DNA from: Utricularia gibba
Lineage: Eukaryota > Streptophyta > Magnoliopsida > Lamiales > Lentibulariaceae
Assembly (NCBI GenBank): GCA_002189035.1
Contig: NEEC01000007.1
Location: 3,100,001-3,164,000, forward strand
DNA length: 64,000 nt
Reading direction: 5' to 3'
Positions 13,991 through 60,794 of this stretch are shown here, one piece after another; the first letter of the stretch is position 1; every line of letters starts with the position of its first letter. The notes beneath the pieces were generated by a model. It was not told where the DNA came from, did not search any database, and worked only from the letters and a program-made list of their open reading frames with translations. Position numbers and translations under genes: made by a program.

Positions 13991-14002
13991 GGTGCACTTT
14001 AG

Positions 14003-14010
14003 TATATATA
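14003..14010 (+). promoter_or_regulatory. TATA box of the SAUR gene
   Basis: tatatata, 48 bases upstream of the chosen ATG at 14058, in a segment otherwise of mixed composition. A short leader is usual for SAUR genes. Confidence 0.6.
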
Positions 14011-14057
14011 CGACCGCTCCCCCCCAACCCTGTTTTCCATTCCATACATCCAATCCA

Positions 14058-14378
14058 ATGGCGATGAGGAGCAGGAAGCAGATGAGGGCGGCGCAGAGGG
14101 CGGTCGTCGGGGAGATCCTGCGGTGGTGCTCCGGCCTCGGGAGGAGGCAGATTTACGAGGAGCTGGATCGGGGGCTCCCAACGGACGTCCCGAAGCAGCA
14201 CTTCGTGGTGTACGTGGGGTCCAGCCGCAGCAGATACATCGTCCCCATCTCCCTCCTGTCCCGCCCGGAGTTCCAGGAGCTGCTCCGGCTGGCGGAGGAG
14301 GAGTTCGGGTTCGATCACCACTCCGGTCTGACCATTCCCTGCGACCAGCATGTGTTCGAGTCACTGATTCAGCTTTAG
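14058..14378 (+). CDS. SAUR: SAUR-family auxin-responsive protein
   Basis: A single uninterrupted exon of 106 codons, the normal size for this intronless plant-specific family. The core from about residue 40 onward carries the SAUR signature: LPTDVPKQHFVVYVGSS, then RYIVPISLLSRPEFQELLR, EEEFGFDHHSGLTIPC and a short C-terminal tail (FESLIQL). The N-terminus is basic (MAMRSRKQMRAAQR). The ATG at 14058 is chosen because the TATA box sits 48 bases upstream; the frame stays open to 13992, but that extension has no family resemblance. Family members are early auxin-induced proteins, several of which inhibit PP2C.D phosphatases and so activate plasma-membrane H+-ATPases to promote cell expansion. 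The coding sequence is much richer in GC than its surroundings. No lesion is seen. Confidence 0.92.
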   Translation: MAMRSRKQMRAAQRAVVGEILRWCSGLGRRQIYEELDRGLPTDVPKQHFVVYVGSSRSRYIVPISLLSRPEFQELLRLAEEEFGFDHHSGLTIPCDQHVFESLIQL

Positions 14379-26964: not shown

Positions 26965-29453
26965 TTACTTCCTTTTTTTTTCATCTAGCATAGAGAGAAG
27001 GGCCTCCTTTGTCAATGGTTTAGTGAGATAGCCATCGGCTCCAGCTTGAATCATCTTATCTATTGCACTCCCTGCATGATGAGCAGTCAATGCCAAAATT
27101 GGTGTATGAGCACCATAGGTTTCTTCTAATTTTCTTATCCTCTTTGTTGTTTCAATCCCATTCATTCCTTCCATCTGCATTTCATTATATTGAATCACCG
27201 ATCAGTAGCACACCAGGTAAAATATTATAAATAAAATAGTGATGGTTTCGTGTTATGTGTAGGTACCTCACAGTCCATTAGGATGCAGCTGAAAGGGACA
27301 TAAGTACACAATCCACCTTTGAGCATTGAAGAAACAAGTGCACAAGCCATTTCCCCACTTTCACATACAATTGTGCTGCCACCAAGCTTTTCAACAGTTG
27401 ATTTGGCTAACATTCTCCCAACGGCATTGTCATCAGCAACCAAGAATTTCTTCCCCTTCAGTGGGTTCATGTCATTAGCAACCTCAACTTCTTGTGTATC
27501 AACATTTTTGCTGCGTATTGTTTGAGAGGATTTGCCAACGTCTAACCTCTCACCCCTTCCCGTTGGAATCCCTCCAAATTCCTGCAAAAGACCAATTGCT
27601 TGATACAAGCGGGATCCATGAAGTGGTTTGGATATGACCAAATCAGACGGAGGCAATTTACCATCATTGATGCTGGGAAAAACATTGTCACTATTGCCTG
27701 TTATGTCACACCAGATGACTCTGCTGCACCAATCTTCAGGCAATCTTCAGGTAAGTCTCTTCTGAAATCAGCTAGAGTCATGTTTATGTCATGGAATTGC
27801 CCCATCCGTTTATCAATCACAATTAATATGAATTTTATCTTCCTCCAAGGTGAAGAATCAACGAATGCTCTGTCAGCAGCACCCAAGGGAGCTTCTACTG
27901 ACCTTTTCCATGAGGTAGCAAACACATCGCTCCTTGATTTGCTTGAACTGCCACTACTGGAAAGAGCAATTCCTTGCTTGATATTTTTCAGTATTTCAAA
28001 GAACTGATCACAGTTCACTGCATCTTGGACATTTATTTCTAGTCTCCGCATGAAGTTTACCAGCAGTGCGCTCCTTTTTTTTGTTCTGGATGAAGAGTAT
28101 TACTCGAGACCTTTCTCCTTTGCTATAATAGTTTTGAATGAGACATCTCCTGCTCCAGAAATAGGTAGAGTTGTATCCTCTATCTAATGTTGCTATTGAG
28201 CTGTGTGCTACTTCTGCCTCCATGAGTACACTAAATCTAATGCAGGTGCCATTTCCTCCACCTTCTATGTCAACGACCTCTATCTCTCCTCCCATTAAAC
28301 GAACCTGAATTCAAATCATACAGGGTTAGTGAGGCTTTTTATTAGTAGAAATTCTTGGTGTGCACCGATATGGCTAATTTGAAAGTGCATTTTAAATGCA
28401 GCATACCAGGGACTGAACGATTCCCAACCCAAGACCGGTGCCTTCTTGGCCTGTTTCTGACTCCTCGACTTGCACATAGTTTTCAAACACCATCTGTCTT
28501 CTCTCTTTGGGTATTCCGGTTCCTGTGTCGCTCACTTCAAACCAATACTCCAGCAAATTCGGATGTCTTTGAACCACCTTTGGATCATTATGCTGGTTTC
28601 TATCTCTCTGGGTTTGAACAGAGGGAGTGAGCTGGTTCTTGATTCTGTTTCATCTACTGCATTTATCCCGTAGTCAATCCTTGGTTTTCTAGCCCATCCT
28701 CTAACTGTGACATGCCCCTCTAAAGTGAATTTCACAGCATTGCTCAGTAAGTTTCCCAGGATTTGCTTTAGTTTGCGGCTATCTCCTTTGACGTGAGAGA
28801 GTTTGAGAAGAGAACCATCACCAGGATCTAGAATCACATCAATTCCTTCATGCCCATGGGGTGATAAAAATCAACCACGTCTTCTAGTAGTTCTTCCAAG
28901 GAAAACCTCTCCTCCACTAGCTGCATTTTCCCAGCTTCGATCCTACTGCTATCAAGAACAGATTTCAGTATTCCTGCATAATGAGCCACAATCACTTAAA
29001 CCGAAAATATGAGTTGAGATAAAGCAATCAACAACAGATGATAGACAGATAGTTAACCTGAAAGATCGCTGATGCAAGCTTCCATCAACTTGAGGTTGGC
29101 ATCTGTATCTGACCTGGAATAGGTACTCTGATACAATTGATGACGACAGAGCTCTGTTATACCATTCAGCGCTGTCAAGGAGGCGTGGATGTCATGGCTT
29201 GCTCTAGCAAAAGCAAGGCTCTTGTTCATGCTCTTCTTCTCGGATTGTTGAGTAGCTTCCATTTGTTTTATCAGAGCACTGCACAAAAGCTTCTCCCTTT
29301 TGGAAGCCCGAATTATGAAATGAAGTAATGTGCATAGAATCAGCACCACGAAGCCTGTGCCCAAGACCAGCAGCACGAGTCCCAGTTTGATGCCGCCGAA
29401 CAGCTTGGATAAAGATCTTCTTCTGTTTGGAACACCTGCTGCAAGTACCTGCA
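26965..29453 (-). pseudogene. CKI1: CKI1-like hybrid histidine kinase, sensor domain missing, frameshifted
   Basis: Exons on the minus strand: 29453-29058, 28973-28407, 28304-27267, 27174-26965. Order: one membrane helix (LVLLVLGTGFVVLILC), a linker with MEATQQSEKKSMNKS, H box FARASHDIHASL (phospho-His), N box NLLSNAVKF, G1 DTGTGIP, G2 GTGLGLGIVQSL, then a receiver domain with VADDNAV, phospho-acceptor Asp in CILMDCE and the lysine in LTKPL. This linker and H box are those of CKI1, an Arabidopsis female-gametophyte kinase that signals through phosphotransfer proteins. Lesions: one missing base near 28847, a frame change near 28615, a frame change at the A8/T8 run near 28075, and an 11-bp tandem duplication at 27730-27751. 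The roughly 350-residue extracellular domain is not found upstream. All catalytic motifs persist, so inactivation, if real, is recent. Confidence 0.82.
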
Positions 29454-31195
29454 TGGCATGGTGTTCTTCTTAGATACACGACTAGTAATTGTAATCGCCA
29501 TGCTCGGTGATAACCTTTGGGTTGTGGGCGGGCAATAGAAAAACCATGAACGCTCAGAAGCTTTAAGAAATAAATTTGACGAAAGCAGTATCTAACTTAC
29601 AGTATGCAAAACCCATGAACGCCCAGAAGCAATGCTCTGTAATCGCCGCATCTTATTCATCATTCAATGCCTAAAATCATAACATGGAATCAAACCCAGA
29701 GCTTCCTTCTCAGCCAAAATGAATGACGGAAACTAGAAAAATAAAGCAGGGATCAAACGGGAGGATTAACAAGTCTCTTTCTTCCTGTCAACGAGAAAGA
29801 TAAAATATAACTAGGAGAAGAGAAAATCCCAACTGCAGCCTGTTGCCATAATAGATTCATAGCAAATATGGAACAATTTCCAAAATCAACTCATAGCAAA
29901 TTATGGAAGTATTATCAAAATAAATTAACACAAAATTATAAAATATGCATTTAGCGAGATATTTTCAGCTTAATCGAGATTTAATTACAAAAATATGTTG
30001 CATATGATATGCATTCCACAACCAACAGATTTTGGTTTTTTATCCCATTTCTTTGGAGAGCGATCAACAAGATAAAAATTCAGGTAGACAATCAAGCAGT
30101 TAAATAATTAAGGTAAATTGATAATAAGAAAAGTGTAGGGTAAGAATGCAGCGAAGATGATATCATTGTCCTTGGGTAAAAATGAATTTACTTGATTGAT
30201 TTATTAGGAAAAAGTTTCATATAATTCTTACATAATCACTCTACCTACTTAATCCTGTTCGTAACTGGATTCGAATAAGATTGCTCTGCCACTCTTCGTT
30301 GGACGTTATGTAATCATTGATAACTCATAATATTAAGATGTAAAAAAGAGTCCTCAAGGACATTTTTATAACTTGCTCCCCATTGTTTTATTGTTATTTC
30401 TAATGTCTAAAAATTTGTTATAATTAATCCTCACTGTTTCAAAATAATGATAAAATTAGTTCGTACGAATTTAGAAAATCGGGAGATTAATTATGTCTGG
30501 TATTCAAACAATGAAAAACATAAACGTTTAAAATATAAAAATATAGTCACTAATTGTAAAGATTAATTATTCTCGATTTAATTATTTCTGCGTCTTGTTA
30601 TTCATTATTAATAGTTTTCACTGTTTTTATTTTTTCAACTTGTTTGTAAGGAATTCAACAATTTGTTTATTCAACACTTTATTTGGAATGGTTTATGATT
30701 AAATTCTGACAGTTAGGGATATTTTATTCGTCTGAATTAGGGGAGGTTTTCCATGTTTCCCATAAATGCTCCTGGTAATTTTTTAAGTTTGGAACACCAA
30801 GCATGACTACATAGTTTGGAATTTTGAAAAATGTTTTTTATATTTGAAATTATATAACACTCCATATTCTATATGTCAGATATTATGGATAAAAGTAAGA
30901 GTTTGAATGCTTTCATTTGAAAACGCATTCTTTTATTTTTATTTTTATTCTATACAGTAATATTTTAAAATTAAGTATTCAATTTCTTTTTAATTGATGG
31001 ATTGCTGCATTTTATCATATAAACTAGTTACTTAGTGAATTGGGTTGTAAAGTTTATTTATTGACCATTCTTGCGATTGTAATTTTGTGCATGGGATTGG
31101 CTGGTGAAGTATGATGTTTTACAGATTATGATTGAGGGATGGAAATATTGCATTTTTTGAAAAAAGGAATTAGTTGCCGTAAACTACCTCAACGG
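29454..31195. other. intergenic, no gene seen
   Basis: AT-rich, no frame of interest. The expected N-terminal exon of the histidine kinase was looked for on the minus strand here and not found. Confidence 0.5.
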
Positions 31196-40397: not shown

Positions 40398-40902
40398 TGT
40401 TATGGGTGAAAATCAGCAATGGGATTAGAACCGATCTTTACTTCGTGAAAATGGCTGGATGTTCGATTTCGGGTACGGTTTGAATGTTCGATCTTTATCG
40501 AAATAAAGAGAGGTGAAGACTTTTTATGTAGAAACCGCCAAAGGACGAGAAAACCACGGAGCTACCGGAGCTTGCCGAAGAAAATCTTCACTAGACGGAG
40601 ATGAGGGGAGAAAATACAAGTTGGAAAGTTAAGGATCGAACCCCATTCTCTTCAAGATTTATTCTCTTTATAGAAGAGGTCGATATGACCGAATCCTGGA
40701 ATCTGTAGACACTGGTTGCTTTCTGCACCTATTGTACGCACTGCGACTCTACTCCTGGATAACCGCCGCCTGCTCTTCTATTGCCATAATTCGACTACTT
40801 TTCAGTCTATCCGAAACGGCCACTTCTGACATACCCTGATAGTTATCGGTTTGTCAGCCTGCGACAGGGACCGATTACCTATATCCGATTTATACCCCAT
40901 CA
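40398..40902 (-). repeat. 3' LTR of the Tat element
   Basis: 505 bases, co-linear with 53745-54290 but lacking about 33 bases near its U3 start and carrying many substitutions. The TG/CA ends are intact. Confidence 0.92.
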
Positions 40903-41462
40903 TTCATAGAGATTTCATGGGTTGGTTCTGGGTCGGTTCTATGCCAACCCAGAACCGACCCAACTACAAAGACAAAGACCCAGAACCGACCCAGACCCAA
41001 TTAAGAACCGATAGACCCAGAACAACGGTTCTTTATCGGTTCTCGGTCGGTTCTGGGTCCTTACTGGTTCCGGCTTTTACTAAAAACATTGAATTTGAAA
41101 GCTTTCAAACAATATAAGAATAATGTATTTAAAGGCACATAAAGCTTAGAAACACTAGGAAAAATGTTCATACAAATTAAAAGGGCTACGTTTAGTTTTG
41201 ATACAAAAGTAGGGCTATTTCACACATTTGAACACACATGTTTGTAAAAATCACATTGAAAACAAACGTTTCCTGGTATTTAATTGATTTGATGCAAATA
41301 TTTTCATAAATATAATTTTGAAACAAACGTTTGTCAAAACACATTGTTTTCAACACAAATGTTTACAAATAAATCTTCTCAAACACCCCCTTCTCAGACA
41401 CACTCACGATAGATATGGGTGCTTGGAAAATGGTTTCAGGTATCCTCACAACATACTCTCTT

Positions 41463-41808
41463 AAACTGTCTCAAATACTCTTTCCCAGACACTCGTATAA
41501 GAGAAGTGGGTGCCTACAAATGGTCTTACCCATTTTTTTCAGACACCCACACAATGCATTGTTTTGTAGGTGCAGTCCAACTCTCTTTACAAACACCCTC
41601 TCGAGACACCCACATGAGGGAAGTGGGTGCCTAGAAAACTGTCTCAAATACTCTTTCCCAAACACCCATATAAGAGAAGTGAGTGCCTAGAAATGGTCTT
41701 ACCCACTCTTTCTAGACACCCAGACAAGGCATTGTTTTGTAGGTATCGTCCAACTCTCTTTCCAGACACCCACACGAGACAATGTGGGTGTCTGAAAAAT
41801 GGTCTAAG
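41463..41808. repeat. two tandem copies of a 173-bp unit inside the hAT element
   Basis: aaactgtctcaaatactctt starts each copy (41463 and 41636). Each copy contains several variants of agacaccca and gtgggtgcct, themselves short inverted motifs, so the unit has internal repeat structure. Confidence 0.85.
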
Positions 41809-42091
41809 CATCACACAGAGATAATATGTTATTTATTATATGGTTTAATAAATAACATATTTACATTATTTATATTTTAATAAACATAACCAAGGATCGA
41901 ATTCTTTTGATTTTTTCTCCAAATTAAAACATGATCCGAGTTCAAAAAACCGAACTTCACACTTCAGTGGTAGATAAGCTATCATTAATGTTCTCATCTT
42001 CAATCAGTTCATCTTCAAGCAATGAGATTTGTTCCATATCTGGATCACAAAAAAATAAAATAAGATCAAATTAGGCAATCAGAAAATATTA

Positions 42092-44299
42092 TCAAATAGT
42101 GATAATAAATAATGCTTCAAGCTTACCCTTGATCTCATTCCGTAGCCAATATCTAGTGCACATTAGTGCTTCTAGAATATCTTCCTTCAACCTACTACGA
42201 AGAGTGGTAACAATTTTTCCACCAATACTAAAAGCAGATTCTGATGCTACCGTAGAAATAGGAATAGCTAGAATATCACTTGCCATTTTCCTTAATGTAG
42301 AATAAGTCACATTGCCACTTATCGACCACCAATTAAGCACATTGAAATTTTCCATTCCTTGCATGATCGGCTCTTTGAGATAGTAGTCTAACTCTGATTC
42401 AAGGGGATTTGAAACAATTCTGAATTCTTTAGCAATGAACCGATCATACTTCGACAAAGTGGATGATCCAGATCTACTCATAGTAACCGAACTAGATGCA
42501 AAAACATGGTCAGCCGCCTTCAAAGATGATAAACTCGAAGTAGAAGTATCTAGAGACTTTTATTGTTTTAAAAGATCTCTCACACTCTTCAACACTTCTT
42601 CAATATGAATACTAGCATCTTTGCCATAAATAAAAGGGAAATAGAATTCAATGAGTTTCATCTTGTACCTTGGATCCAAAACCGCAGCAACTCCAAGGAT
42701 TAAATGACAAGTGTCCCAATATTTGGAGAACTTGGCCATCATCTCTTCTGCCATTCAAGAAATGGTCTCATCTGCACTCTTAACCCATTCATTTGGTTGA
42801 ATCTTGATTTCACAAATTGTAGGAAAAAATAAGTTGGTAGTGGGGTGAAGAGTTTGTGAAAACAAGAGAGTAGCCTTATAAAAAATCTCTAATTTGTCAC
42901 AAATCTTACTAGCTTTGAGCCAATCATCTTCAATAGGAAGATCTTTGTATTGCCTTTCTATAAGTGCTACTCGTGGAAACACATCTTTATAAAAAAATAG
43001 CAGTTCGCAGCATCAAATATATCGAATTCCAGCGAGTCTTGCAATCAAGTGCTAGCTTCTTGTCACCATCAATAGCACATTGGTTTGCAGCATGATCAAA
43101 TGTTTCAACTCTCTTTTGTGAAGCCGTCCAAAACACAATACTCCGACAAATTTTTTCAATTGCTCTCTCAATCTTAGACAACCCAACTTCAACAATTAAA
43201 TTCAAAATATGTGCATTACAACGCATGTGAAGTACCTGACCACCAAGAAGCAAATCTTTTGTTGAAAGCTTTAGGAGAATCAATTCCATCATAAGATCAT
43301 TTGTTGAATAATTGTCAACAATAATTGTAGACAACTTCCAATTAATATTCCACTCAATAAGTGATTGAAGCAACACATCTGAAATTACTCCAGCAGTATG
43401 TGGTGAAGGGACAAACAAATATGAAAAGACAACAAGTAAATTGAGAGAAAAATCATAAACAAATCATAATGAAAATACTGCTAAATACATTCACTTATTT
43501 AAATGATATTAAAGGAACCTCAAGATACAACTCTGTAGCTTCCAATCTTCATCAATAAAATGTGCCGTAATTGCCATGCATCCTTTCATATTATGATTGG
43601 CTGTCCACATATCTGTCGTAATTGCCACTCGGTTTTTTGTTTTTTGTAACAATGAATAGCACTTGGATCTGTAACTCAAATACATTTGAGTAGTATCCCT
43701 TCTGAGAGAATGCCGAGAAATCATAGAGAATCCAGGATTCAGGCTTGCACAAATCCGATATGCTCAACCATGACCAATGGATAATTATGTAAAACAACAG
43801 CTTTTGTGAGTTCCTCTCGTGCCACTTTGGGATCAAAGTCAAACTTTTCAATTGCACCTTTTCTTCCAATCTGAAGAATAGATTTTCTAATGTCCACTTT
43901 GACTTTTTTCTTGATACAAGTATTATTGTAATGCTTCCAGAGACTTGAGGTGCCATTGGCTGTTTCTGTAGAAATGGTTCTCTTACAATAATTGCATTCT
44001 GCCAACCATTTTTTTTTCTTGTCATCAAAGAATCTCCTAAAATGATTCCAAATATCTGAACTTCGTTTCCTTGTATTATTGCTTTCAGTCTCCTCTTCAT
44101 TCCCGGCTGAGTCTGCTCCTAATCCAGAAGTATAGTCTTTGTCATTAATATCCGTTCCCAACCCTCTTATATTCTGCTCGTCTTCCATAATTTGTGGTGG
44201 TGTGGAAGATACAATATAATCATAATTTGATGCCATCTCCTGAAATCTTACAATCAGAATACACAAAATGAAGCTAAACAACACAAATCTAATACACAA
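42092..44299 (-). pseudogene. hAT transposase (BED finger, dimerisation domain), frameshifted
   Basis: From 44299: an acidic N-terminus, a BED zinc finger (DIWNHFRRFFDDKKKKWLAE, CNYC, LWKHYNNTC), then the catalytic core with RVAITTDMWTANHNMKG, IIVDNYSTNDL, HMRCNAHILNLIV and LDCKTRWNSIYLML, the RNase H-like fold typical of plant RICESLEEPER/Ac-type transposases. It ends with the hAT dimerisation block (LNWWSISGN, LAIPISTVASESAFSIGGKI, SRLKEDILEALMC). The frame breaks near 43735 (with a few codons lost), around 43450-43510 (possibly an intron), near 42985 and at stop codons near 42755 and 42560. Inactive, but the element could have been mobilised by a related transposase. Confidence 0.88.
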
Positions 44300-44800
44300 T
44301 TAATAATAAACCCTAAATAGAGCAGATAGAAATCGAATCAGTCAAATCTCAACGACCTATCTCAATGCCTAAACCATAACATGCACGACACCAAGTCAGC
44401 AACATGGAAAATCAAAAGACTTCTCAAATCCACAAACCCAAATCTACATGGCTATCTTCGTCGTTGCAAAGCCCCTACTTCTTTCCACAAATATGGGCCC
44501 CATTGTCATTTAATTATGTAAGTAATAATAATAATAAGTGTTAATAAATAATATGATGAAAACATGCTGAGTAAATAAATAATTATTTACATCCCACAAC
44601 CCAACATTCTTAGTGAAAAAATACTATCGGTTCTGGTCGGGTCTGGATATTTTCCCGTAGACCCAGAACCGACCGGTTCTTCATTTAATGGACCCAAAAC
44701 CGACCCAAACCTAGAACTGGTCAGAACCGACCTGAAAAACTGGGTCGGTTCCGATCGGTTCTAGGTCTGGGTGGGTCTTTTGAACATCTCTAATCATTCA

Positions 44801-45296
44801 GCCCCTCTGATTTGCCGATATTGGCCTCTTCAGGGTAAGTCGGTGAATTAGAATCACTGCTATACCGATTTTGGGCATGCCGCTTTCCAATGGGTGAGTC
44901 TAAAGCCAATTTATATCGACTTCCATGCCACGCGTCACCTCCAAGGCGCTCCACATTTTTTCCCGCTCGTTTTGGGCACCTCAAGCGACGCACCATTTCA
45001 TCTTCTGAATTCCCCTCTTATAAATATGTGCTTCTCCAGCCATTTCTTCCTTTTGCTTCTTTTCCTGCTCGCGATATTTCTGTGCTACTCGTTCGCCGCC
45101 GCGTGAACCACTGAAAACTGCAAATTCTTCAGGTATCCGCACCTTCTCCATATCTTTTCTTTGATTCCTGGGTTAGTTCGGCGTTCCGTTAGGTTTTTGA
45201 GATCCTCCTCTCCTCATTTCCGCTCCCCCCTGCAGGTTTTTGTTTTTCCTTTGCCCTCTTTGCAACTTCCTCTCCTCTTCGATTCTCGAAAACAAG
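44801..45296 (+). promoter_or_regulatory. promoter and leader of the opposite-strand gene in the Tat element
   Basis: A TATA box (tataaatat, 45019-45027) is followed by a pyrimidine-rich leader. A donor-like site (cag|gtatcc near 45132) and an acceptor-like stretch before the ATG at 45297 suggest a 5' UTR intron. The same stretch, read on the minus strand, contains the purine-rich tract next to the 3' LTR. Confidence 0.5.
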
Positions 45297-47492
45297 ATGG
45301 ACAGAAAATCTAGCGCACTGAACACCTCTGTAGTTCGTTCCAAGTACTCGATTCCGGAGGAATATATCATTTCTTAGGCCAAGGACGCCCAGATTCCCTG
45401 GGGGTCTGGGGAAAGGCCTCTTCCCCGTTCAGTCTCCCCATCCCCATTGCCTATTTGGAAAACGGCCTCCGATTTCCGCTCCATCCCCTACTCGTTCAGT
45501 TTCTTCACATGTTTGCCATCCCCCTCTATTGCCTGGCCCCGAATTCGATTTTGTGTTTTACTACCTTCTTGTTCTACTTGGCGGGTATGGATCCGGCAAT
45601 GACCCTAGTGGACTTTTTCCAGCTCTTTAAAGTTGCAGTCTGGAAAGCTAAGCCCCCCGACACCCACCACGACTGGTGGTCTTCCTTCATTTGGGTTGCT
45701 CCTCCCATAGGAGCTAGATGGAACTTCCCGATTAAGCCTCCCAATCCCTTTGAGATTAAACCATTCAGCCGCTTTCGTCCTTCTAACGATTCTCGAAGAG
45801 ATGTGTATCAGAGGCTCAACAAATGCTTTGAGAAATACGAGTCCTAGTCCCAAATGCTCTCGCGAGATACATTGACTGCTTGTGAGATCCTTGGCCACAC
45901 TCAGGGCGGGCCATGGTTTGATTTAATCATTCCCCCGGGTTTTGAGTTAAAGTTTCTTCATCTCTTTCATTCTCCACCCGATATCCTTGTCATTTCTAGT
46001 ACACCTCCCACTTCCGATCAAACAATCCCATTTCCATCCGACCCAGTTCCTAAATCTTCTGCTCACCCTTCACCTCAAAAGAAAAGAAAAAGGTTTAAGG
46101 TTCGCATGCAGGAACCTTCTAAAAGGCACAGAGGAATTCAGGTTCTGCCTCCCCGAATTGTAGTATTTTTTATGGCATTTCACCATCCTTTCAATTTTCA
46201 AATGCAGTTGAGGAATGGCACGGAGAACCGCCTTAGAGGATTCGGTGATGGCCCGTTTCATTGCCGAGATGCAAAGGGTGCAAGAGTCTGATACCGCCCC
46301 TTCCCTTCAGGTTTGTTTTATATGAACCATTATGATGGGTTCCCGATTTTTACCTCGTTAACTTTCTTTCTAGGCTGGATCCCTCGAGGCTCATTTAGAT
46401 GCTGGTGATCACGTCTCCGAGGGGGATCAGGTGATCGAGGTCTCCGAGGTTCGGGAGTCCACTCCTCTTCCTCCAATGGGGAAGGGAAAAGAGAAACTCT
46501 TTCTTTCTCCTGATCCTGCTGACCTCCTATTTCTTGGTACGGAACCCTTCTCGGCTGGTGCCTCTACATCGGCTCCCCGAATGAAAGTAGAGGGGATTCT
46601 CCCCCTGCTAATGAGATAAGAGAAGATCCTGCTCTTCCGTCATCTTTGTTTCCCCCTGAGCTGCGAAGGGCCCTGGAAGAAGTGACCCCAAGTCTCTTAG
46701 GGGTCCAGCCAGAGGTCATGCTCAAGGGGATTTGGCAGGTTTTCCTCTTCTGTTTTGGAGTTGTGCGCAGTGCGTTTCTAACTCGACGGTCTTTTTAGGC
46801 TCTGACTTTTGGATGGGGCATGGCCAAGGAGATGGGGTCTCATTCGGAGGAAGTTTCTTGGCTTCAAGCTCATGTGGTGGCTCAGGAAGCCAAGATTAAG
46901 CTGCTGGGAGAGGAAGAAAGTTCGCTGAGAATGATTCTCGGAAAACGTTTCCATCAGGAGGAGGAGTTGCAAAATATAGTAGATGAAATGGGGAAGGCAA
47001 TTGATGATGCCAACTCTGAAAAAGGAAAGCTTCAAAATGCGTTTTGAGGAGGTGGAGGCAGAGCTGAAGCAAACCAAGGATCGTGTTTTGACCTTGGAGG
47101 CCGAGTTGCTTGACCAAGAGGTGTCTCGAGGGAGGCTTTTAGAAGATTTTGTCAACTCGGCTTGCTTCTCCGAGTTATCAGACATCTACACCGGGGAGTT
47201 TGGACTATATCGGCAAAGGCATCAAATTAGCCGGGAGTTTGGACTATCAATCATGGATCCACGCTTCGAAAGGGTCAACCCCTTGACGAAGGATGAGAAC
47301 ATGCTTGATGTCATCGTGGACGTTCATCCTGCTCCTGAATTTGGATTCGAAGCTGATCGGGAACACCTAATTGCACTCATTCGGGGGAGGATCGGGCGGG
47401 AGAATGAGGTCAAGCTGCGGGCGAGGCTACAGGGTCACGTTGGCCTCTTAGTTGGTCCTCCTACTGATCTCTCTCCTTCTCCTGAACTTTAG
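45297..47492 (+). pseudogene. opposite-strand ORF of Tat element, putative gypsy-type transposon family
   Basis: Reads against gag-pol. The first segment (MDRKSSALNTSVVRSKYSIP) is broken by a stop and a frame change, then ENGLRFPLHPLLVQFLHMFA and DFFQLFKVAVWKA to about 45900. This is the N-terminal pattern of the plant 'putative gypsy type transposon' family (Transposase_28, PF04195). After a Pro/Ser-rich middle come intron-like gaps with GT/AG ends (about 46312-46376 and 46736-46798), then a coiled coil (EEVSWLQAHVVAQEAKIKLL, EEVEAELKQTKDRVLTLEAE) and a C-terminal end at 47492 with a frame switch near 47030. The function of these proteins is unknown. At least three lesions are present. Confidence 0.72.
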
Positions 47493-47659
47493 TTTCTTTT
47501 TCTTTTCCATCACTCTCTTGGAGCTAACATTTTTGTCCCTGATTTGGGGTTTAAACGGCTTGAAATTCCCCAGGTTTGGGGACGTGACTTTGTTCGTTTT
47601 TGGGAGAATTTTCCCCCTCTCGTGTTGACTTGATTACTTTTCCTAATTTGAAGGTTTTT

Positions 47660-48570
47660 TTTTTTCGCCAACCGTTGGGCTGGGCTTTTCGCTTAAGTAT
47701 ACTCGCGCGATTGTTGCTAAGGATGTAACTCGGAACCCGTCTTAGGTTGAGTTACTTCCCTAATTCGAATAGGTCCTCTTCTGGTCAGATCCATGCTTTG
47801 GAGGTATAGTCGGATCTACTTTGGGTGCATTTGCCGTTTCGAGATTCGACAGCACGAACTTTACTTAGAGCTTTTTCGGGGCTTACGTGAATGGTTAGGG
47901 GGAACCAGTGTGCGAGTTGTACCAGGGCTTACCCCTTCTACTAGTGGCTGGGTTTTTGAGATCACGTATTTCGGGGAGAGCCCCTTTTAGTGTATGTGTT
48001 CTAGACACAATCAACTCATTGGCAAACCCAACAGCCCCGATTCAATTTGTTGTGCTCATCGCGAGGCTTAGATTGAGAGGGTTTGCATGGGCTCACTTTA
48101 CTCAGAGGTTATGTATCCTTTACCAACCATTTGGTTGGGCTTTTTTATTTGCCTTAGTCGCTCCTTACGCGAGCGGGACCACTGCTAGGGAAGTGGATCA
48201 GAACCCCTCGCGGGTTGAACGACTTCCCCAATCCGAATGGGCCCTCTTCTGGCCTAAATTCTATTGTTTTAACATGGACGGATTTGCTTTGGGTGCTCTA
48301 GCCGTCTCGAGATTCGGTAGTAAGGTTTGTACCTAATGGCTTTTTCGGGGTTTATATGATCGGTTTGGAGAAACCGGTGCCCGAGTTGTACCAGGGCTTA
48401 CCCTTATCATTGGGGCCTGGGTTTGGAGGAGCACATAATTCGGGGGGAGCCTCGATTTGGTTTGCTATGCCCATCGGGGGGCGCAGACTTAGAGGATTTG
48501 CCTGGGCTTATGTGACACTGTTAGGGCTTATGAATTTGTTAACTCATCTCCGCTTTGGAGGAATATATAG
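47660..48570. repeat. diverged tandem duplication, period about 450 bp
   Basis: Landmarks recur in order: ccaaccgttgggctgggct / ccaaccatttggttgggct (47669, 48123), gggccctcttctggcc-like, gtctcgagattcg (47838, 48304), gagttgtaccagggcttacc (47916, 48383) and the gagatcacg/ggagcacat stretch. It lies between the end of the opposite-strand gene and the end of pol, where both genes need terminators. Confidence 0.75.
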
Positions 48571-48629
48571 CTCAAGTGTTTTGGTGAAGAAAATATCGAA
48601 ACCTGTGAGAATTCGTGACGGAGATTGAT

Positions 48630-51600
48630 ATTGGGTAGGTTAGGCGTAGAATTCCTTCAGATGTGATGCATTCCATGACCTTGGAAACTCCACGCCATCT
48701 AGCTATTTTAGATGATAAGCCCCTCTTCCGATTGCTCTCGAAATCTGATAAGGGCCTTCCCAATTGCGATCTAATTTTCCCACATGTCTCTGTGGTTGGA
48801 TGCTTTGGAGCACCAAGTCTCCTTCCGAGAATTCTCTTGAGGATACAGATTTGTTGTAATTCTTTTCCATTCTTCTCTGGTAAGCCTCTAATCAGCTGTA
48901 AATACTCTGTCTTTTTTCCTTCAACAACTCTAACTCCAGTCTTCGTAGATCGGCATTTTCCTCTTCGTCATAGTGTTCCACCCTATAGCTCTTCAGTGTT
49001 AATTCGATTGGGCATACTGCTTTCGATCCGTAGACCAATAAGAAAGGGGATTCTTCTGTAGTAGTTCGGGGGGTGGTGCTGTATGACCATAACACCTCAT
49101 CCAGCCGGACTGCTCATGACCCTCCGAAATCCTCAAGTTTGGTTTTCATACCTTGTCTGAGCGTTCGGTTTGTTGCCTCTATGAGGCCATTGCTTTGAGG
49201 ATGATAGATCGAAGTGAAGTTGTGCTTGACGGAATACCTATCTAGGAATGCGTCCATCTCCCCCCCCCCCCCACAACAAACTGGGTTCCATTATCGGTCA
49301 CGAGTTCCCGAGGTACCCCGAATCGGATGAAGATGTTTCTCCACAGGAATCAGATGACGGTTTCTTCTGATATTTTTGCCACGGCTTCTGCTTCTACCCA
49401 TTTGGAGAAATATTCAATCTCTACGATGACAAACTTCCTTTGGCCAGAGGTTTGAGGGAAAGGTCTCACGATATCCAACACCTAGCGATCAAACGGGCAT
49501 GAGTGCGATAGAGTGGTCAGGTTGCTTATCGGTTTTCTCGGTATGTTTGCATGATATTGGAATATCTTGCATTTCTTCACTGCTTCAGTAATGTCTTGTT
49601 TCATAGTTGGCCAATAGTACCCGCTTCTCATTGCCTTTCTACATAATGATCATATTCCGACATGACTGCCGCACTCCCTCTCGTGCAAATTGGTAATAAG
49701 CTCTTGAGAATGTTCTTTCCCGATACTAGCATCCATCAAGGATCTTTGATAGAGAATTCCGTTTACTAGCGTATATCTCTTTGCCCTAATCTCCAACTGT
49801 CGGGCTTCCGATTTATTAGATGGTGTTTCTCCGTTTTGTAAGTATCAGATGTAAGGCGATATCCAATCTTCGAGAAGACTTAGCTGCGAAGAGATGTCAT
49901 TTCCTAGTTGTTGGGTAATATGGTTCATTGTTCGCAAGGCTACTGAAGGTTGATCCCGCAATCGGATCGTCACACTCCCTTCTTTTAACTCTAGAAAACC
50001 TGCGGCAAATCAGGCGAGGCTGTTCGCAGATCCGTTTTCCTCGCGTGCCACATGCGACAAGGTGAACTCCTTGAAATTCTTTGCCATCTCCTTCACCTTA
50101 ACACAATACAAAGCCATTAGGGGGTCATGGGTTTCATACTCACCCGAAAACTGTCCTTGCACTAGCCGTGAATCGGTATAAACGTCGAGCTCTGCAACTC
50201 CAAGTTCCTTGGCCATTTTCATTCCTTCAATCAGAGCTTCGTACTCGGCGACATTATTGGAGGCTGGGCTTTGATCGAGGTTCTCAACCCGAATTCGATA
50301 TCCATTGTGCTTAACTCAACTGCCCATTTCGCTACTCTTCCAGAAATTTCAGGTCAAGATAGAATATTCTTCAACGGCTGATTTGTGAATACATGATATA
50401 CCGATCTTGGAAACACGATTTCAGCTTAGTGGCCGTCATCTTCAGAGCCAAGATGAATTTCTCTGTCACTGCGTACCGGGTTTCGGCCGGTAGCAGAACC
50501 TTGCTCACATAATATATTGGTAGGTGTTTTTCTCTCAAAATGGTTGTCAAGACAGTGTTAACCACAATGGACAATATTGATAGGTAGAGCCACTAGAAGT
50601 GGGGGCGATGAGAGATATTCCTTAAGTTTTTTGAAAGCAGCTTGACAATCCTCATTCCATTCTACCGTGTTCCCCTTTCGCAGAGCTCTGAAGAAAGATG
50701 CCGACTTATCGGCCGACCGAGAAATGAACCGCTGAGGGAAGCCAATTTACTTGCGAGACTTTGATATTCTTTGATCGTTCTTGGGGGTCGCATTTCGCAG
50801 ATAGCCTTAATCTTTGCGGGATCGGCTTCGCTCCCTCTCTCCGATACGTAATGTCCAAGGAATTTCCCACTCTGCACCCCGAAGCAGCATTTCAATGGGT
50901 TGAGTTTTAATCCATATGACCGACATAAAGAGAAACAGGAATCCAGATACGCCAAATGATCTTCTTCATTCACTGACTTTACGATCATATCGTCCACATA
51001 CACCTCCATAGAAGTACCGATTTCGGAAGAAAAGATTTGTTCACCAATCTCTGATAAGTAGCCCCAGCATTCTTCAAGCCGAAGGGCATCGCAACATAGT
51101 AGTAGACCCCATCCTTGGTGTAGAAGGTTGTTTTTGGTTGGTCCTTCTCTGTGACGAAAATTTGATGATATCCATAATACGCATCCACGGTGCTCAGAAA
51201 TCGGGATCCGGAAATGGCATCCACCAGTTTATCAATTTTTTGCAAGGGGTAAGGATCCCTCTTACAACAGACGTTGAGATCGGTGAAGTCGACGCACATT
51301 CTCCACTTTCCTCCGGGTTTCGGGACAACAACTCGGTTGGCCACCCTTTCGGAGTACTGAATCTCCTTCACGTAACTAGCTTCCAGTAGCTCTTTTGTCT
51401 TCTCTTTTATAATCCGGTACTTTTCTTCAAAGAAGTGCCGTTGCTTTTGCCGAACCGGTTTCGCACTCGGGTAGGTATCAATACGATGTTCAGCGATAGA
51501 TCGATCAATGCTTACAAAATTTACAACAGTCCAGGCAAAAATATCAACATTCTCCCTCAAATATTCGGCTAACCTTTTCTCAAACCCGGCGTTTAAGTTG

Positions 51601-52365
51601 GTGTCAATGCGCCACCTTTTGTGTATCTCCTAGTACTAATTGCAATGGCTTGTACCCCACCAATTCCATTGCTTGTCTAGGAGGTTCCCGAGGTTCCTTT
51701 TCCACCATCATTATTCTCGGCTTCTTTGTGCAGGGATCTCGACAAGAAGACACATAACAGGATCAGGCGGCTGGTTGGTCGATATCCAACGTACAGATAC
51801 CCCTTGGTGTTGGAAATTTAACTTTTAGATGCACAGTTGAGGGCAACATACCGAATTGGTTGATGACGGGTCGGCTGAGGATGATGTTATACGAGACCTC
51901 CGAATCCAGAATCAAGAATTCTAATCTTTCGATCCGGTTTCGCCCCGCAGCACTGAATGTCATGGGCAAGGTTATCTTCCCGGCAATTTGTACGTCCCGT
52001 TGATCGAATGCGTATAACTCCATGCGGATAGGATGGATATCTCCTTCTTTAGACGATGCAAGTAACTCGGCGACTTCCTTTTTCATAATGTTGCAGGAAG
52101 ATCCCTGATCGATGAGGATCCTTCTTACCTTGGTGCTTCTGCATATCCCTGTTACCACCAAAGGTTCATTTCGTGTGACTAGGCCGATCGGAATGTCTCT
52201 ACAAGAGAAATTGATCTCTTCCTTTTCCCAAGCAGCTTTCTCAATCTGACCTTTCCCAATTTCGAAGATTTCTCCTCTTCTAGCCTTGTCCACATATCTC
52301 TTCCATGCTTTTTTTGGTTTAATCAATTTTGGTCCCCTCGGATACCATATGGATTTCCCGGACAT
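48630..52365 (-). pseudogene. Tat-element pol: protease, RT, two RNase H regions, integrase
   Basis: Protease 52365-51763 with RRILIDQGSSCNIM (the D.GSS form of this lineage). RT 51560-50662 (RMCVDFTDLNVCCKRDPYP, STVDAYYGYHQIF, VAMPFGLKNAGATYQRL, VYVDDMIVKS), with a frame change near 51030 just before YVDD. RNase H about 50640-50280 (LPIYYVSKVLLPAETRY). Second RNase H-like region about 50260-50000 (YEALIEGMKMAKELG, DVYTDSRLVQGQ, HVAREENGSANSLA). Integrase about 49720-48640 (GYYWPTMKQDI, RELVTDNGTQF, YHPQSNGLIEATNRTL, VLWSYSTTPRTTTEESPF). A poly-C run of about 13 bases at 49259 lies in the integrase core. Stops are scattered throughout. The full domain order is as expected for Ty3/gypsy. Confidence 0.88.
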
Positions 52366-52398
52366 AGGGGGGCTACCTTGTGTCTGGTTGGCGTTTTT

Positions 52399-53716
52399 TC
52401 AACTTTCTGGTACATCTTGTTCTCTTTCGAGGTTCAAGCCCCTGCTGGCACGCGGGGTTCCCCTTGCTGGTCTTGGGGGGAACTTCGGATATCGGTTACG
52501 TTCATTCCTCGGATGCTCGTCACGTACCCTCTTTCGTTCCGTTATTGGTACGGGGTTCCGTGTCGTGCTGTTTGCCCCGCCGCCAGCATGATATTGTTCA
52601 ACCATCCTTCTCATTATCCGACAGTCGACAGTATTGTGCCTTGTTGTTTTGTGTATCTCACAATAGGTGTCTGTTCTGGTCGGTTCCACCTGATATACTT
52701 CATGGCGCTTATTCGGCCGGGGGCCTTGTTGGGCTGCACTTCTTGCTGCTAAATCGGACGGATTTCTACATGGCTCTTCATCTCAGCCCTGAGGTCTTCA
52801 TCAACTCAGATGTACTTCATGATTTTCCTTAGCAATTCTCCGAGATTTTTCGGTGGGGACTTAGACAAACTCTGCCCCAGTTTCGATGTTCCTAGAGCCC
52901 GCTTCATTATTTCCACCCTCTCCTTCAAATCCAACTGAACATCCTGCGCTAGGCAGTTGAATCGGTCGATGTATCTTCTCAAGCTCTCTTTTCGGTGGTC
53001 ATACTGAATAGAATACAATGCTGCCTTTGAAGGCAGAGCTTCGATGTTGACAGCGTATCGGGTACTGAAGAGCAACACCAACTCCCGATAAGATCCCGCA
53101 CTACACGGTTCTTATTGCTTGAACCAAGTCTTTGCTCCCTTTTGGAGCGAGCAAGCAAACATCTTACATTTCATGGCTTCCGAATGCCGAACCGTGGCCA
53201 TCCTCATGTCAAAGTGGGTCACATGGGATATGGGATCTCCTTTTCCATCGTACGTGGGTAGTCCGTCGGGGACTCTGAATCCCCTCTCTAGTTCTTCCCC
53301 GATTAATTCATCCGAGAAAGGGTCAAAATGCAGTGCTGGGGTTACCGCTGCTCCTTCAACGCTGCTCTTCAGAGCTAGGTCAATATCGGCCAGAATGTCC
53401 CCTCTCCCAGTGCATACGTTCTAATCGAAGGCATCCCTAAAGCCCCTACTCTCTCTTCTCCTTGGTTACGCCTCTTTCTTCGCAACATCTCCTCCTCGGT
53501 CTCAGATTCGGTCTTAGTGTCCAGGGAATATTCCAGAATCAGGGATTGCTTTTCTACCCGTTGTGCGGTTTCAGGTGTCCTCTCCTGTGCGTTGGAGTTC
53601 AACCTCGAAGGTGCCCTAAAGTCGGAGGAGATTTTCGTCAAAAGGGCCTTCAATTGTTCCCTACTGATGACCATAAGGCCGGGGTCTGGCCTCTGTGGAT
53701 TTCTTGAGTGGAACAA
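52399..53716 (-). pseudogene. Tat-element gag
   Basis: Starts near 53716 (MFHSRNPQRPDPGLMVISRE), then the capsid-like retrotrans_gag region (LFSTRYAVNIEALPSKAALY, ESLRRYIDRFNCLAQDV) and a C-terminal zinc-binding-like motif YCEIHKTTRHNTVDC (C-x2-H-x8-H-x4-C type spacing is typical of this lineage), followed by a basic Arg-rich tail ending at 52399. Internal stops around 53110-53120 and 52700-52800 break it into three frames. Confidence 0.8.
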
Positions 53717-53744
53717 TAGATCTGCCCCACGGTGGGTGCCAAAA

Positions 53745-54290
53745 TGTTATGGGTGAAAATCAACATTGGGATTAGAACCAATCTTTACTTCGTGAAAATG
53801 GCCGGATGTGTCGATTTCGGGTACGGTTTGAATGCGTGGTTTGATGCGGTTTACCGAAATAAAGAGAGGTGAGGACTTTTTACGTGGAAACTGCCGAAGG
53901 ATGGAAAAACCACGAAGCTATCGGAGCTCACCGTAGAAAATCTTCACTAGATGGAGATGAGGGGAGAAAATACGAGTTGGAAAGTTAGGGATCGAACCCC
54001 ATTCTCTTTAGGATTTATTCTCTTTATAGAAGAGGTCGATCTGATCGAATCCTGGAATCTGTAGATGCCGGTTGCTTTTTGCACCTGTTGTACGCACTAC
54101 GACTCTACTCCTAGATAACCGCCGCCTACTCTGCTATTACCGTAATTCGGTCACTTTTTAATCTATCTGAAACGGCCGCTTCTGACATACCCTGACAGTT
54201 ATCGGTCTGTAGGCCTGCGATAGGGTGTCAGAATACCTTTTTGGCTACTTTTCAGGGACTGATTACCTATATTCAATTTATACCCCATCA
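53745..54290 (-). repeat. 5' LTR of the Tat element
   Basis: 546 bases; minus-strand start TGATGGGGTATAAAT (a TATA-like sequence unusually close to the LTR start) and end CACCCATAACA, followed by a primer-binding site. It holds an extra segment (gtgtcagaatacctttttgg) absent from the other LTR. Confidence 0.92.
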
Positions 54291-57563: not shown

Positions 57564-58352
57564 CCTAAAATACAAATTGCTTGTTCAGATATCCCCTTTT
57601 ACACCCATTGAGAGTTGTCAGATTTTGAGGAAATGGCAAACAAATCAAAATCGTTCCATGATTAACAAGAGACAGACCAACAATAAATGAAAGCAATGGC
57701 AAACAGATTTCAGATTACCTAACAAGATAGCAAACAAAATTTCAAGTACCATCTTCGCAACAGCACCACACTTAAATAAAAGCTTATTATACTCGAATTT
57801 AGCATTAAAACCAACCAACATGAACTCAAAACACCTTTAATGGTTTCAGCGAAACCAGAACGGATGCCACTGATCACGTTTACCTGAAACGAATCAGAAA
57901 ACAATCCAGCGAAACACCCACTCGTGCTCCGACTCCCTCCACTGGTACAGAAATGCATATCGTGATCACATTCCGATCAGCCCACATTTTCGATGGGCCT
58001 GAATGATATGGATCATCCTTGGGCCATAACAAGTTTTTAATTACATTATTTTTATTTGCATATTTGAAAAAAATTAATATATGAGAAATTCAAAGTTTTT
58101 TTTTTTTTCAGCCATTGGTTTAGCCATAAAATACAATGGACGAAATCTTATTATTATAATTAAATTGTCGTATTTATTTATATTTGGTTTTATTGGAGGA
58201 ACAAAAAAAATGGCAAATATTTGCTGGCGGGCACGTGGGTTCTGCGCTGGACTTCACCTATAAGAAATCGGCAGCCGGAAGAGCGCATACCTCCCCTCGC
58301 CATTTTTGGATCCTCGATTTACTGCCTCTTTTCCGCCGCAGTCGACGCGACT
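57564..58352. promoter_or_regulatory. shared divergent promoter of PGR and HMGR
   Basis: 789 bases between the two start codons. Site II-type motifs TGGGCC at 57994-57999 and 58020-58025, and an agccca at 57979, lie near the PGR side (its leader probably extends to about 57960 with an intron). A G-box CACGTG (58232-58237) and a TATA-like ctataag (about 58258) lie 95-120 bases before the HMGR start. An AT-rich block sits between the two groups. Confidence 0.55.
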
Positions 58353-60794
58353 ATGGACGTCCGCCGGAGGCCCACCGTCACCGCCAGAGCTGCAGATCAT
58401 CACCAGAAACCCGAGCCTAGAGCCTCCGACGCGCTCCCGCTCCCCTTGTATTTGACCAACGGCTTTTTCCTGGGTGTATTCTGCGCCTCCACGTACTTTC
58501 TGTACCGTCGCTGGACATACAAGACGCAGAACTCAATCCCTCTTCATTCTCTCACATTCTACGAGCTCTCCGGCGTCATAGGTCTCGTCGCCTCGATCAT
58601 CTACCTCCTCGGCTTCTTTGGGATCGATTTTGTGCAGTCTTTTATTAACAAGCACGAGAATTACGATGACAACCAACGATTTATTCTTGACGAGAACCGT
58701 AACATTCATTGTCCTCTGCCGCCGAAGCCCATTTCCCGGCCGAAAATCGACATGGATCTCCCTGTGGAGGATGAGGAGATCGTGAATCGTGTTGTTTCTG
58801 GTGAAATTCCGTCTTATTCATTGGAATCAAAGCTTGGGGACTGTTTTAGGGCGGCGAAGATTCGTCGTGAGGCAATCCAGAGGCAGACTGGGAGATCCCT
58901 GGAGGGGCTGCCTCTAGAAGGGTTTGATTATGATTCAATTTTAGGGCAATGCTGCGAATTGCCGGTAGGATACGTACAGATTCCGGTGGGGGTAGTGGGG
59001 CCCTTGTTATTGAACGGATGCGAGTACTTGTTGCCCATGGCGACTACCGAAGGCTGCTTGGTAGCAAGCACGAACAGAGGTTGCAAGGCAATTTACGCCT
59101 CAGGCGGTGCAGATTGCGTTCTTTTTCGTGATGGAATGACAAGGGCTCCGGTGGTAAGGTTCCCAACAGCAAAGAGAGCCACGGAACTGAAATTCTTTCT
59201 GGAAGATCCACTCAATTTCGACACGCTATCCGTCATTTTCAACAAGTAAGCAAATCATGCGTTTTGGTTGCCTCCCATTATCTACTGTTTCCATGAGATA
59301 GTTTACAGTTTTCGCCATTTGTAAGTTCAATCCCAGAATTCTTTCCTGTCATATTCAGCATATGCAAAACCAGGGGTTCCCTTTCCGTCTCCATAATTGA
59401 TGTTCTTTATCCATGCATGATGCTTCTTCTGAGTTGCTGAGTGCCCTTCTGCCTTCTGAAATGCTTGAGCACTATTTGTGCAGGTCAAGTAGATTCGCAA
59501 GACTTCAGAGTGTGAATTGTGCCATTGCGGGGAAGAACCTGTACATTAGATTTTGCTCCAGCACAGGTGACGCCATGGGTATGAACATGATCTCGAAATG
59601 TGTTCAGAATGTTCTTGATTTCCTCCGGAATGACTTCCCAGATATGGATGTTATCGGCATCTCCGGTTAGTCCTCCCTTTATGTCTGTTTCTTCCACTAC
59701 TCCCTACAGCTTGGCGCGCACACATACCACCACCCATATGGCTTTACTTTTTTAGTATCTATTTTTCTCCATTTTTTTGCCTCATAGTTTTGAGAATAAT
59801 CAAAATAATAACGATATTTTCACCATAATGTTTCGAAATAAGATTTGTGGTGATCTTTTGGTGGTAGAAGATGTTGAAATTTAGATAATGAACTTGTTTT
59901 TTTATTGAAACTTTAGTTGATGTTTTAGTTAAATGATTTGGATTCTATTTTTTAATTTTCATTCTCGTCTTTCGGAAAATTCATTTTGACAATGTGTATC
60001 TACTATAACCGCAGTCCTTTTGTTGTTTGAGGAGTTGGCTGCGTCATACTTTTACCTTTGCATTCTTCTCTGGGAATCTTGACTGGGCATTGGTATCCTA
60101 ACGCAAACGTTTCTCTTGTGTGTGTATATGCAGGAAATTTCTGCTCAGACAAGAAACCAGCAGCGATCAACTGGATTGAAGGTCGTGGAAAATCAGTGGT
60201 CTGTGAATCTACAATATCCGGAGATGTGGTATCCAAGGTGCTAAAAACAACAGTCGCTGCCCTCATCGAACTCAACATGCTCAAGAACCTGGCTGGCTCG
60301 GCTGTGGCTGGTTCTCTCGGTGGGTTCAACGCGCATGCTGCCAACATAGTCTCCGCAATCTTCATTGCTACTGGCCAGGATCCAGCCCAAAATATCGAGA
60401 GCTCCCATTGCATTACCATGGTCGAAGGCGTCAACGGTGGGAAGGATCTTCACGTATCAGTCACCATGCCCTGCATCGAGGTACATACCTACACCTACCC
60501 ACCTCACTCAAAATATCGGAAGCATGATGATGCAACAATGGCTTTCCGCAGGTTGGCACCATCGGCGGAGGAACGCAGTTGGCATCACAATCCGCCTGCC
60601 TCGACCTACTGGGTGTCAGGGGCGCCAACAAGGAGTCACCAGGTTCCAACTCCCAGCTCCTTGCCAGAATCATCGCCGGCGCCGTGTTGGCAGGAGAACT
60701 CTCCCTGCTGTCCGCCCTCTCCGCCGGCCACCTGGTGAAGAGCCACATGAAATACAATCGGTCCAGCCGGGATGTCACCAAGCTTGGCTCTTAG
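58353..60794 (+). CDS. HMGR: 3-hydroxy-3-methylglutaryl-CoA reductase
   Basis: Four exons, 58353-59245, 59484-59665, 60134-60480, 60552-60794, give 1,665 bases and 554 aa, the usual plant size and exon number. It makes mevalonate from HMG-CoA with two NADPH at the ER, the main control point of cytosolic isoprenoid synthesis. MDVRRRP start; an Arg-rich head; two membrane helices (about 31-51 and 73-97), both ends cytosolic; a variable linker; then the catalytic domain with Glu233 in [17 protein letters not shown], Lys365 in [18 protein letters not shown], Asp441 in [15 protein letters not shown] and His539 in [12 protein letters not shown]. The serine after MKYNR corresponds to the SnRK1-type inhibitory phosphosite known in plant HMGR. 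The start at 58353 is chosen over an in-frame ATG at 58221, whose extension is unlike the family. No lesion. Confidence 0.97.

Follow-up and report, generated by a model that had tools for sequence, protein, structure and literature searches.

Comparative evidence for a four-exon antisense PF04195 gene in Retand/Tat-type retrotransposons of Utricularia gibba

Antisense genes with a PF04195 domain are already known as a hallmark of Retand elements, which are Ty3-gypsy retrotransposons with long terminal repeats (LTRs): of the Retand clusters with recent activity, 97% were reported to carry an antisense open reading frame (ORF) with this domain (Vicient 2025, PMC11963269), and the domain is predicted to be DNA-binding (PMC11963269). 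Here we describe such a gene in a stretch of 64,000 nucleotides of the Utricularia gibba genome (assembly GCA_002189035.1, contig NEEC01000007.1, positions 3,100,001 to 3,164,000; hereafter the window, with positions counted from its first letter), together with its sister copies in the same genome. In maize Grande, gene23 is known to have its own promoter and a nuclear protein (Gomez-Orte 2013, as cited in PMC7264820), and the antisense gene of Silene Retand is weakly transcribed according to PMC7264820, a review that also calls for a search for antisense and spliced transcripts. HBZ of human T-cell leukemia virus type 1 (HTLV-1) is likewise antisense and spliced (PMC3185765). A first-pass annotation of the window, made from its letters alone, had stated that opposite-strand ORFs are known in Tat/Retand elements and that their products have no assigned role, which is correct; antisense PF04195 genes in Retand and a promoter of the gene's own in Grande are, however, published (PMC11963269, PMC7264820).

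The U. gibba gene is most directly compared with the Retand antisense PF04195 (TRP28) ORFs, which it resembles in domain order, place, orientation, N-terminal domain and coiled-coil/SMC-like partner; however, PMC11963269 describes plain ORFs, with introns unmentioned, and here we found four exons with conserved introns. Grande gene23, likened by description only and as far as it is presented in PMC7264820, is likewise accessory and antisense, occupies the interval from pol to the 3' LTR, and has a promoter of its own and a nuclear product. As an analogy only, HBZ and APH of the HTLVs are antisense, spliced, nuclear and coiled-coil (leucine zipper) and lie near the 3' LTR (PMC3185765), but HBZ differs in that its transcription starts in the 3' LTR. 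Ogre, as cited in PMC6317226, shares the presence of an intron in a Tat-lineage element, but that intron is in sense, whereas the introns described here are in the antisense gene. No report of introns in antisense PF04195 genes was found in the open literature that we searched, key original papers lying outside its reach, and as far as that literature goes these introns are unreported.

The gene occupies the plus strand of the segment that separates pol from the 3' LTR in an element running on the minus strand (Table 1). We aligned the window with 27 sister copies using MAFFT (27 to 29 copies across analyses); all copies came from one genome, of which 100 Mb was covered, and the searches scored best candidates only. 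Conservation along 45297-47492 followed a clear three-base rhythm, with a mean identity in the exons of 0.74-0.81 at codon positions 1 and 2 versus 0.52-0.56 at position 3. With the exons read in the phase of the cleaner copies, none of 2000 permutations matched the periodicity of any of the four exons (p=0.0005 in each), and periodicity was absent from the 5' untranslated region (UTR) and the 3' flank. The median ratio of nonsynonymous to synonymous substitution rates (dN/dS; Nei-Gojobori, per exon) was 0.16, 0.17, 0.31 and 0.15 for exons 1-4 in the coding frame, whereas both remaining frames of the plus strand gave about 0.9-1.35; many pairs were near synonymous saturation and were excluded, so the absolute values are rough, while the contrast between frames is not. 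Stop codons occurred at 0.6-1.3 per 100 codons in the coding frame and mostly at 1.0-6.8 in the five others, except in exon 2 (33 codons), where two minus frames were about equally open. A minus-strand product as the source of the periodicity was considered and is countered by the stops in most other frames, exon 2 being indecisive when taken by itself.

Typical exon lengths (907+104+360+699 nt) give 690 codons with the stop, i.e. a predicted protein of about 689 amino acids. Codon periodicity, dN/dS, the loss of periodicity specific to the introns, the GT/AG borders and the consistent phases across about 30 copies together support the gene model, and judging from these comparisons we are highly confident that the family carries a coding gene of four exons and three introns that is under purifying selection. 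The opposite-strand gene proposed between pol and the 3' LTR is thus borne out by periodicity, dN/dS and its presence in about 30 copies; its proposed start at 44801 is not, since a hAT transposon with its 8-bp target duplication ends just before that position.

The three intron segments are about 60-75 nt long, mostly with lengths that are not multiples of three, and were delimited by hand on the alignment; splice sites and intron presence were counted in a set of 30 copies, i.e. 90 introns. No codon periodicity was detected in the three segments (p=0.66-0.82), the median p-distance between copies within them is about 0.4, and GT and AG rank among their most conserved dinucleotides. Intron B also has a conserved CTAAC/CTGAC branch-point-like motif and a pyrimidine tract. 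When nine copies from more diverged subfamilies were added (about 65-73% identical over longer pieces), the same three segments were found in the same places. The absence of periodicity, the GT/AG ends and the positions shared across relatives are those of spliceosomal introns, and the GT/AG gaps noted in the first-pass annotation are real introns, as established for the family by comparison of copies. From this we infer that the antisense gene is transcribed and spliced. The gaps could instead be read as degraded coding sequence or linkers, belonging to a single ORF or to several small ORFs, and published surveys do annotate plain ORFs and leave introns unmentioned. Yet the gaps are aperiodic, mostly non-triplet and GT/AG-bounded, the frame is continuous only once they are removed, and a check for members with coding gaps, run on decayed copies, found the gaps to be non-coding; this reading is extremely improbable.

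The predicted promoter of the antisense gene has both a TATA box and a 5' donor that are conserved. The TATA box noted in the window has its counterpart in sister copies (Table 1). As for the proposed 5' UTR intron, its donor stood, since CAG followed by GTATC or GTACC was kept in 25 of 27 copies, and its acceptor is less certain, with a YAG followed by G or similar before the ATG in 20 of 30 aligned copies, against 21% by chance; we consider this intron probable and less firm than the other three.

The window copy itself is a pseudogene: stop codons interrupt its frame at 45375 and 45845, the frame shifts near 45405, 46550 and 46990, and the GT donor of intron A has mutated to GA. About 65 bases that other copies have in addition at 45657 were considered as a further intron and rejected, because they are coding there; the window copy has therefore lost some 60-70 bp of exon 1 around this position. 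Since this copy is broken, what we say on coding capacity, introns and function concerns the family only.

The predicted protein has, near its N-terminus, the PF04195 block that had been suggested there. The window copy scores 24.5 to 26.5 bits versus a cut-off of 26.2, a borderline match, and PF04195 was matched by 14 of the 22 members (best E 5.4e-12) of one alignment, which was made up of pieces of sister copies, the window and PF04195 loci from other families. C-terminal to this domain there is a basic cluster, also seen in the form KKRKRVKV..KPSKRHRG, that resembles a nuclear localization signal (NLS). In the structure model of exon 4, helices span residues 2-42 and 48-144, with a predicted local distance difference test score (pLDDT) >90 over most of residues 11-110; the model is consistent with a long coiled coil at the start of this exon, in line with the C-terminal coiled coil proposed earlier.

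We found the antisense gene at at least 40 loci, in several subfamilies. At 20 of 40 loci a Tat reverse transcriptase (RT) was present within 9 kb, downstream and on the opposite strand in all 20, at a distance of 1.6-5.2 kb (mostly 3.4-5.2 kb); the other 20 loci had no RT among the matches listed, and decayed copies may escape detection. The antisense gene belongs to the element, with a fixed place and orientation where the RT was found. The gene might alternatively be a neutral passenger captured from the host or from a transposon: PF04195 also occurs far from detected Tat RT, including a family beside a PIF/Harbinger-like DDE_Tnp_4 transposase, and the introns, if present from the start, imply entry as genomic DNA and not as a copy of a spliced mRNA. 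However, a transduced host gene is marked by one or few copies only, and neutral carriage is excluded by the number of loci and subfamilies, the fixed place and orientation, and strong purifying selection (dN/dS 0.15-0.31), so that we regard a passenger as very unlikely; capture, as distinct from neutral carriage, may still account for the gene's origin.

Because retrotransposons are copied from RNA, introns that are spliced out of their genomic RNA should disappear, a fate that a gene in the opposite orientation escapes. In the mechanism that we propose, a promoter belonging to the gene itself, adjacent to the 3' LTR, would drive an antisense mRNA that runs counter to gag-pol, and introns would be removed only from this transcript. 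The genomic RNA, of opposite polarity, would carry them as an unspliceable reverse complement, which reverse transcription would copy faithfully. None of the 90 introns (three introns, 30 copies) was lost, as would be expected if the sense genomic RNA holds the introns in reverse complement; the persistence of introns through antisense orientation, put forward in the first-pass annotation, fits this count, and as an explanation we keep it conditional. The protein would re-enter the nucleus as a coiled-coil dimer, its PF04195 end would contact DNA or chromatin, and it would aid the element; the likeliest way would be to regulate or un-silence the element's transcription in an HBZ-like manner.

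A different possibility is that the antisense strand acts as RNA, pairing with genomic RNA and feeding silencing by small interfering RNAs or self-limitation, with the ORF being incidental. A dedicated antisense promoter would yield such RNA, and PMC7264820 raises the possibility; but the dN/dS values and the periodicity in four exons show that the protein is under selection, something not predicted by an RNA role, and this purifying selection speaks against a role as RNA alone just as it does against a neutral passenger. We consider an RNA role rather unlikely as the main explanation, and it may exist alongside a protein role. It is also conceivable that the introns are real and that partial splicing regulates the protein made (spliced versus retained), as several short introns offer choices and the sense intron of Ogre is partially spliced, according to the account in PMC6317226. 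Against this, the sequence carries no sign of regulated retention, and the constraint on exon 4 matches that on exon 1, so that the complete spliced product is apparently needed; such regulation seems unlikely.

Several points weigh against a spliced antisense accessory gene with a nuclear role. The NLS-like cluster was identified by eye; the PF04195 part was modelled poorly (mean pLDDT 47), and the N-terminal alignment, searched as a profile against the PDB, recovered no relative (best E 0.81), so that DNA binding rests on the published prediction. Both transcription and splicing are deduced from sequence, and the copies of this one genome are mostly decayed. Moreover, transcriptional regulation is inseparable here from anti-silencing, integration or other nuclear roles. 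With these points taken into account, we judge a spliced antisense accessory gene with a nuclear role likely as a whole, a judgement weighted to the gene model, and the nuclear accessory role of the protein evenly balanced.

The element that contains the gene is old and decayed: its LTRs begin with TG, end with CA and are about 88% identical to each other, and a 5-bp target site duplication (TSD), AAATG, flanks it on both sides. An additional RNase H, located between the first one (RH) and integrase (INT), is a mark of the Ogre and Retand clades (PMC6317226). Both the domain order, gag, RT, RH, RVT_3, INT, and the antisense PF04195 gene fit the Tat lineage, as had been proposed; that it is Retand and not Ogre is suggested by the antisense PF04195 gene only, and not by RT phylogeny. 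A hAT transposon, separate from the antisense gene, has inserted where the 3' LTR meets the internal region. A 113-nt direct repeat, 76% identical and with a spacing of 469 nt, lies at 47870-48451, in the stretch from the antisense gene to pol.

Table 1. Position, strand and supporting evidence of the features of the antisense gene and its host element in the window (TIR, terminal inverted repeat).
Feature	Position	Strand	Evidence
TATA box TATAAATA of antisense gene	45019-45026	+	TATA-like motif at aligned place in 21/27 copies
Probable 5' UTR intron	45133-45235 (approx.)	+	Donor (CAG before GTATC) conserved, acceptor less certain
Exon 1: ATG, PF04195, basic NLS-like cluster	45297-46133	+	Periodicity p=0.0005, dN/dS 0.16
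PF04195 (Transposase_28) domain	45449-45634	+	Profile match
Basic cluster QKKRKRxKV..PSKRHRG, NLS-like	46074-46130	+	Read by eye in alignment
Intron A, phase 1	46134-46207	+	28 GT, 27 AG of 30 copies
Exon 2	46208-46310	+	104 nt in most copies; periodicity, dN/dS
Intron B, phase 0	46311-46373	+	25 GT, 25 AG of 30 copies
Exon 3	46374-46738	+	dN/dS 0.31, periodicity
Intron C, phase 0	46739-46798	+	28 GT, 27 AG of 30 copies
Exon 4: predicted coiled coil and conserved C-terminal tail	46799-47492	+	dN/dS 0.15, helix model
Retand/Tat-type Ty3-gypsy LTR retrotransposon, contains nested hAT	40398-54290	-	LTRs, TSD, domains
3' LTR, 505 bp	40398-40902	-	
5' LTR, 546 bp	53745-54290	-	
gag-pol remains	49114-53111	-	Domain matches
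gag	52806-53111	-	
RT	50662-51629	-	
RH (RT_RNaseH)	50371-50592	-	
RVT_3, extra RNase H, between RH and INT	50010-50315	-	
INT H2C2 (Integrase_H2C2)	49482-49649	-	
rve	49114-49290	-	
Nested hAT transposon, BED zinc finger ORF, TIR TAGAGAT	40907-44792	-	8-bp TSD ATCATTCA at 40899 and 44793

PF04195 was also found in other contexts of the genome, and 112 of 129 PF04195 matches had no Tat RT within 9 kb among the matches listed. PF04195 genes outside Tat elements were present at L002 (47-427 and 1285-2079), L004, L006 and L007; in one high-copy family, a fragment of a PIF/Harbinger-like DDE_Tnp_4 transposase lies immediately upstream. A downstream block looked FCP1/NIF phosphatase-like by eye, an impression that Pfam did not confirm. 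At L005 (1381-1776 and 2481-2813), L001, L003 and L008 there is a third PF04195 family, whose C-terminal block is coiled-coil-like, and no RT was found near its members. Periodicity was weak in the PF04195 genes of two unrelated families, represented by four copies each only. One copy of the element directly adjoins a pectin methylesterase-like gene (L051:3204-5030). Finally, the window contains plus-strand ORFs of an HMG-CoA reductase-like host gene (58164-60738), minus-strand ORFs that resemble a plant histidine kinase with a receiver domain (27225-29596) and a plus-strand ORF that resembles a SAUR auxin-response protein (13986-14378).

The family is a clear comparative example of introns that survive reverse transcription, with three introns present in every copy examined at about 0.4 differences per site. 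As a tentative generalization, which we put forward with less than even confidence, multi-intron accessory genes may be general and long-lived in Retand elements; the antisense orientation would shield their introns, and splicing would be needed to produce a nuclear coiled-coil PF04195 regulator, a convergent plant counterpart of HBZ. The annotation of such elements is corrected as well, in that the exons of the accessory gene are to be joined and not listed as separate short ORFs. The full protein can now be predicted, which makes the role of the PF04195 protein directly testable.
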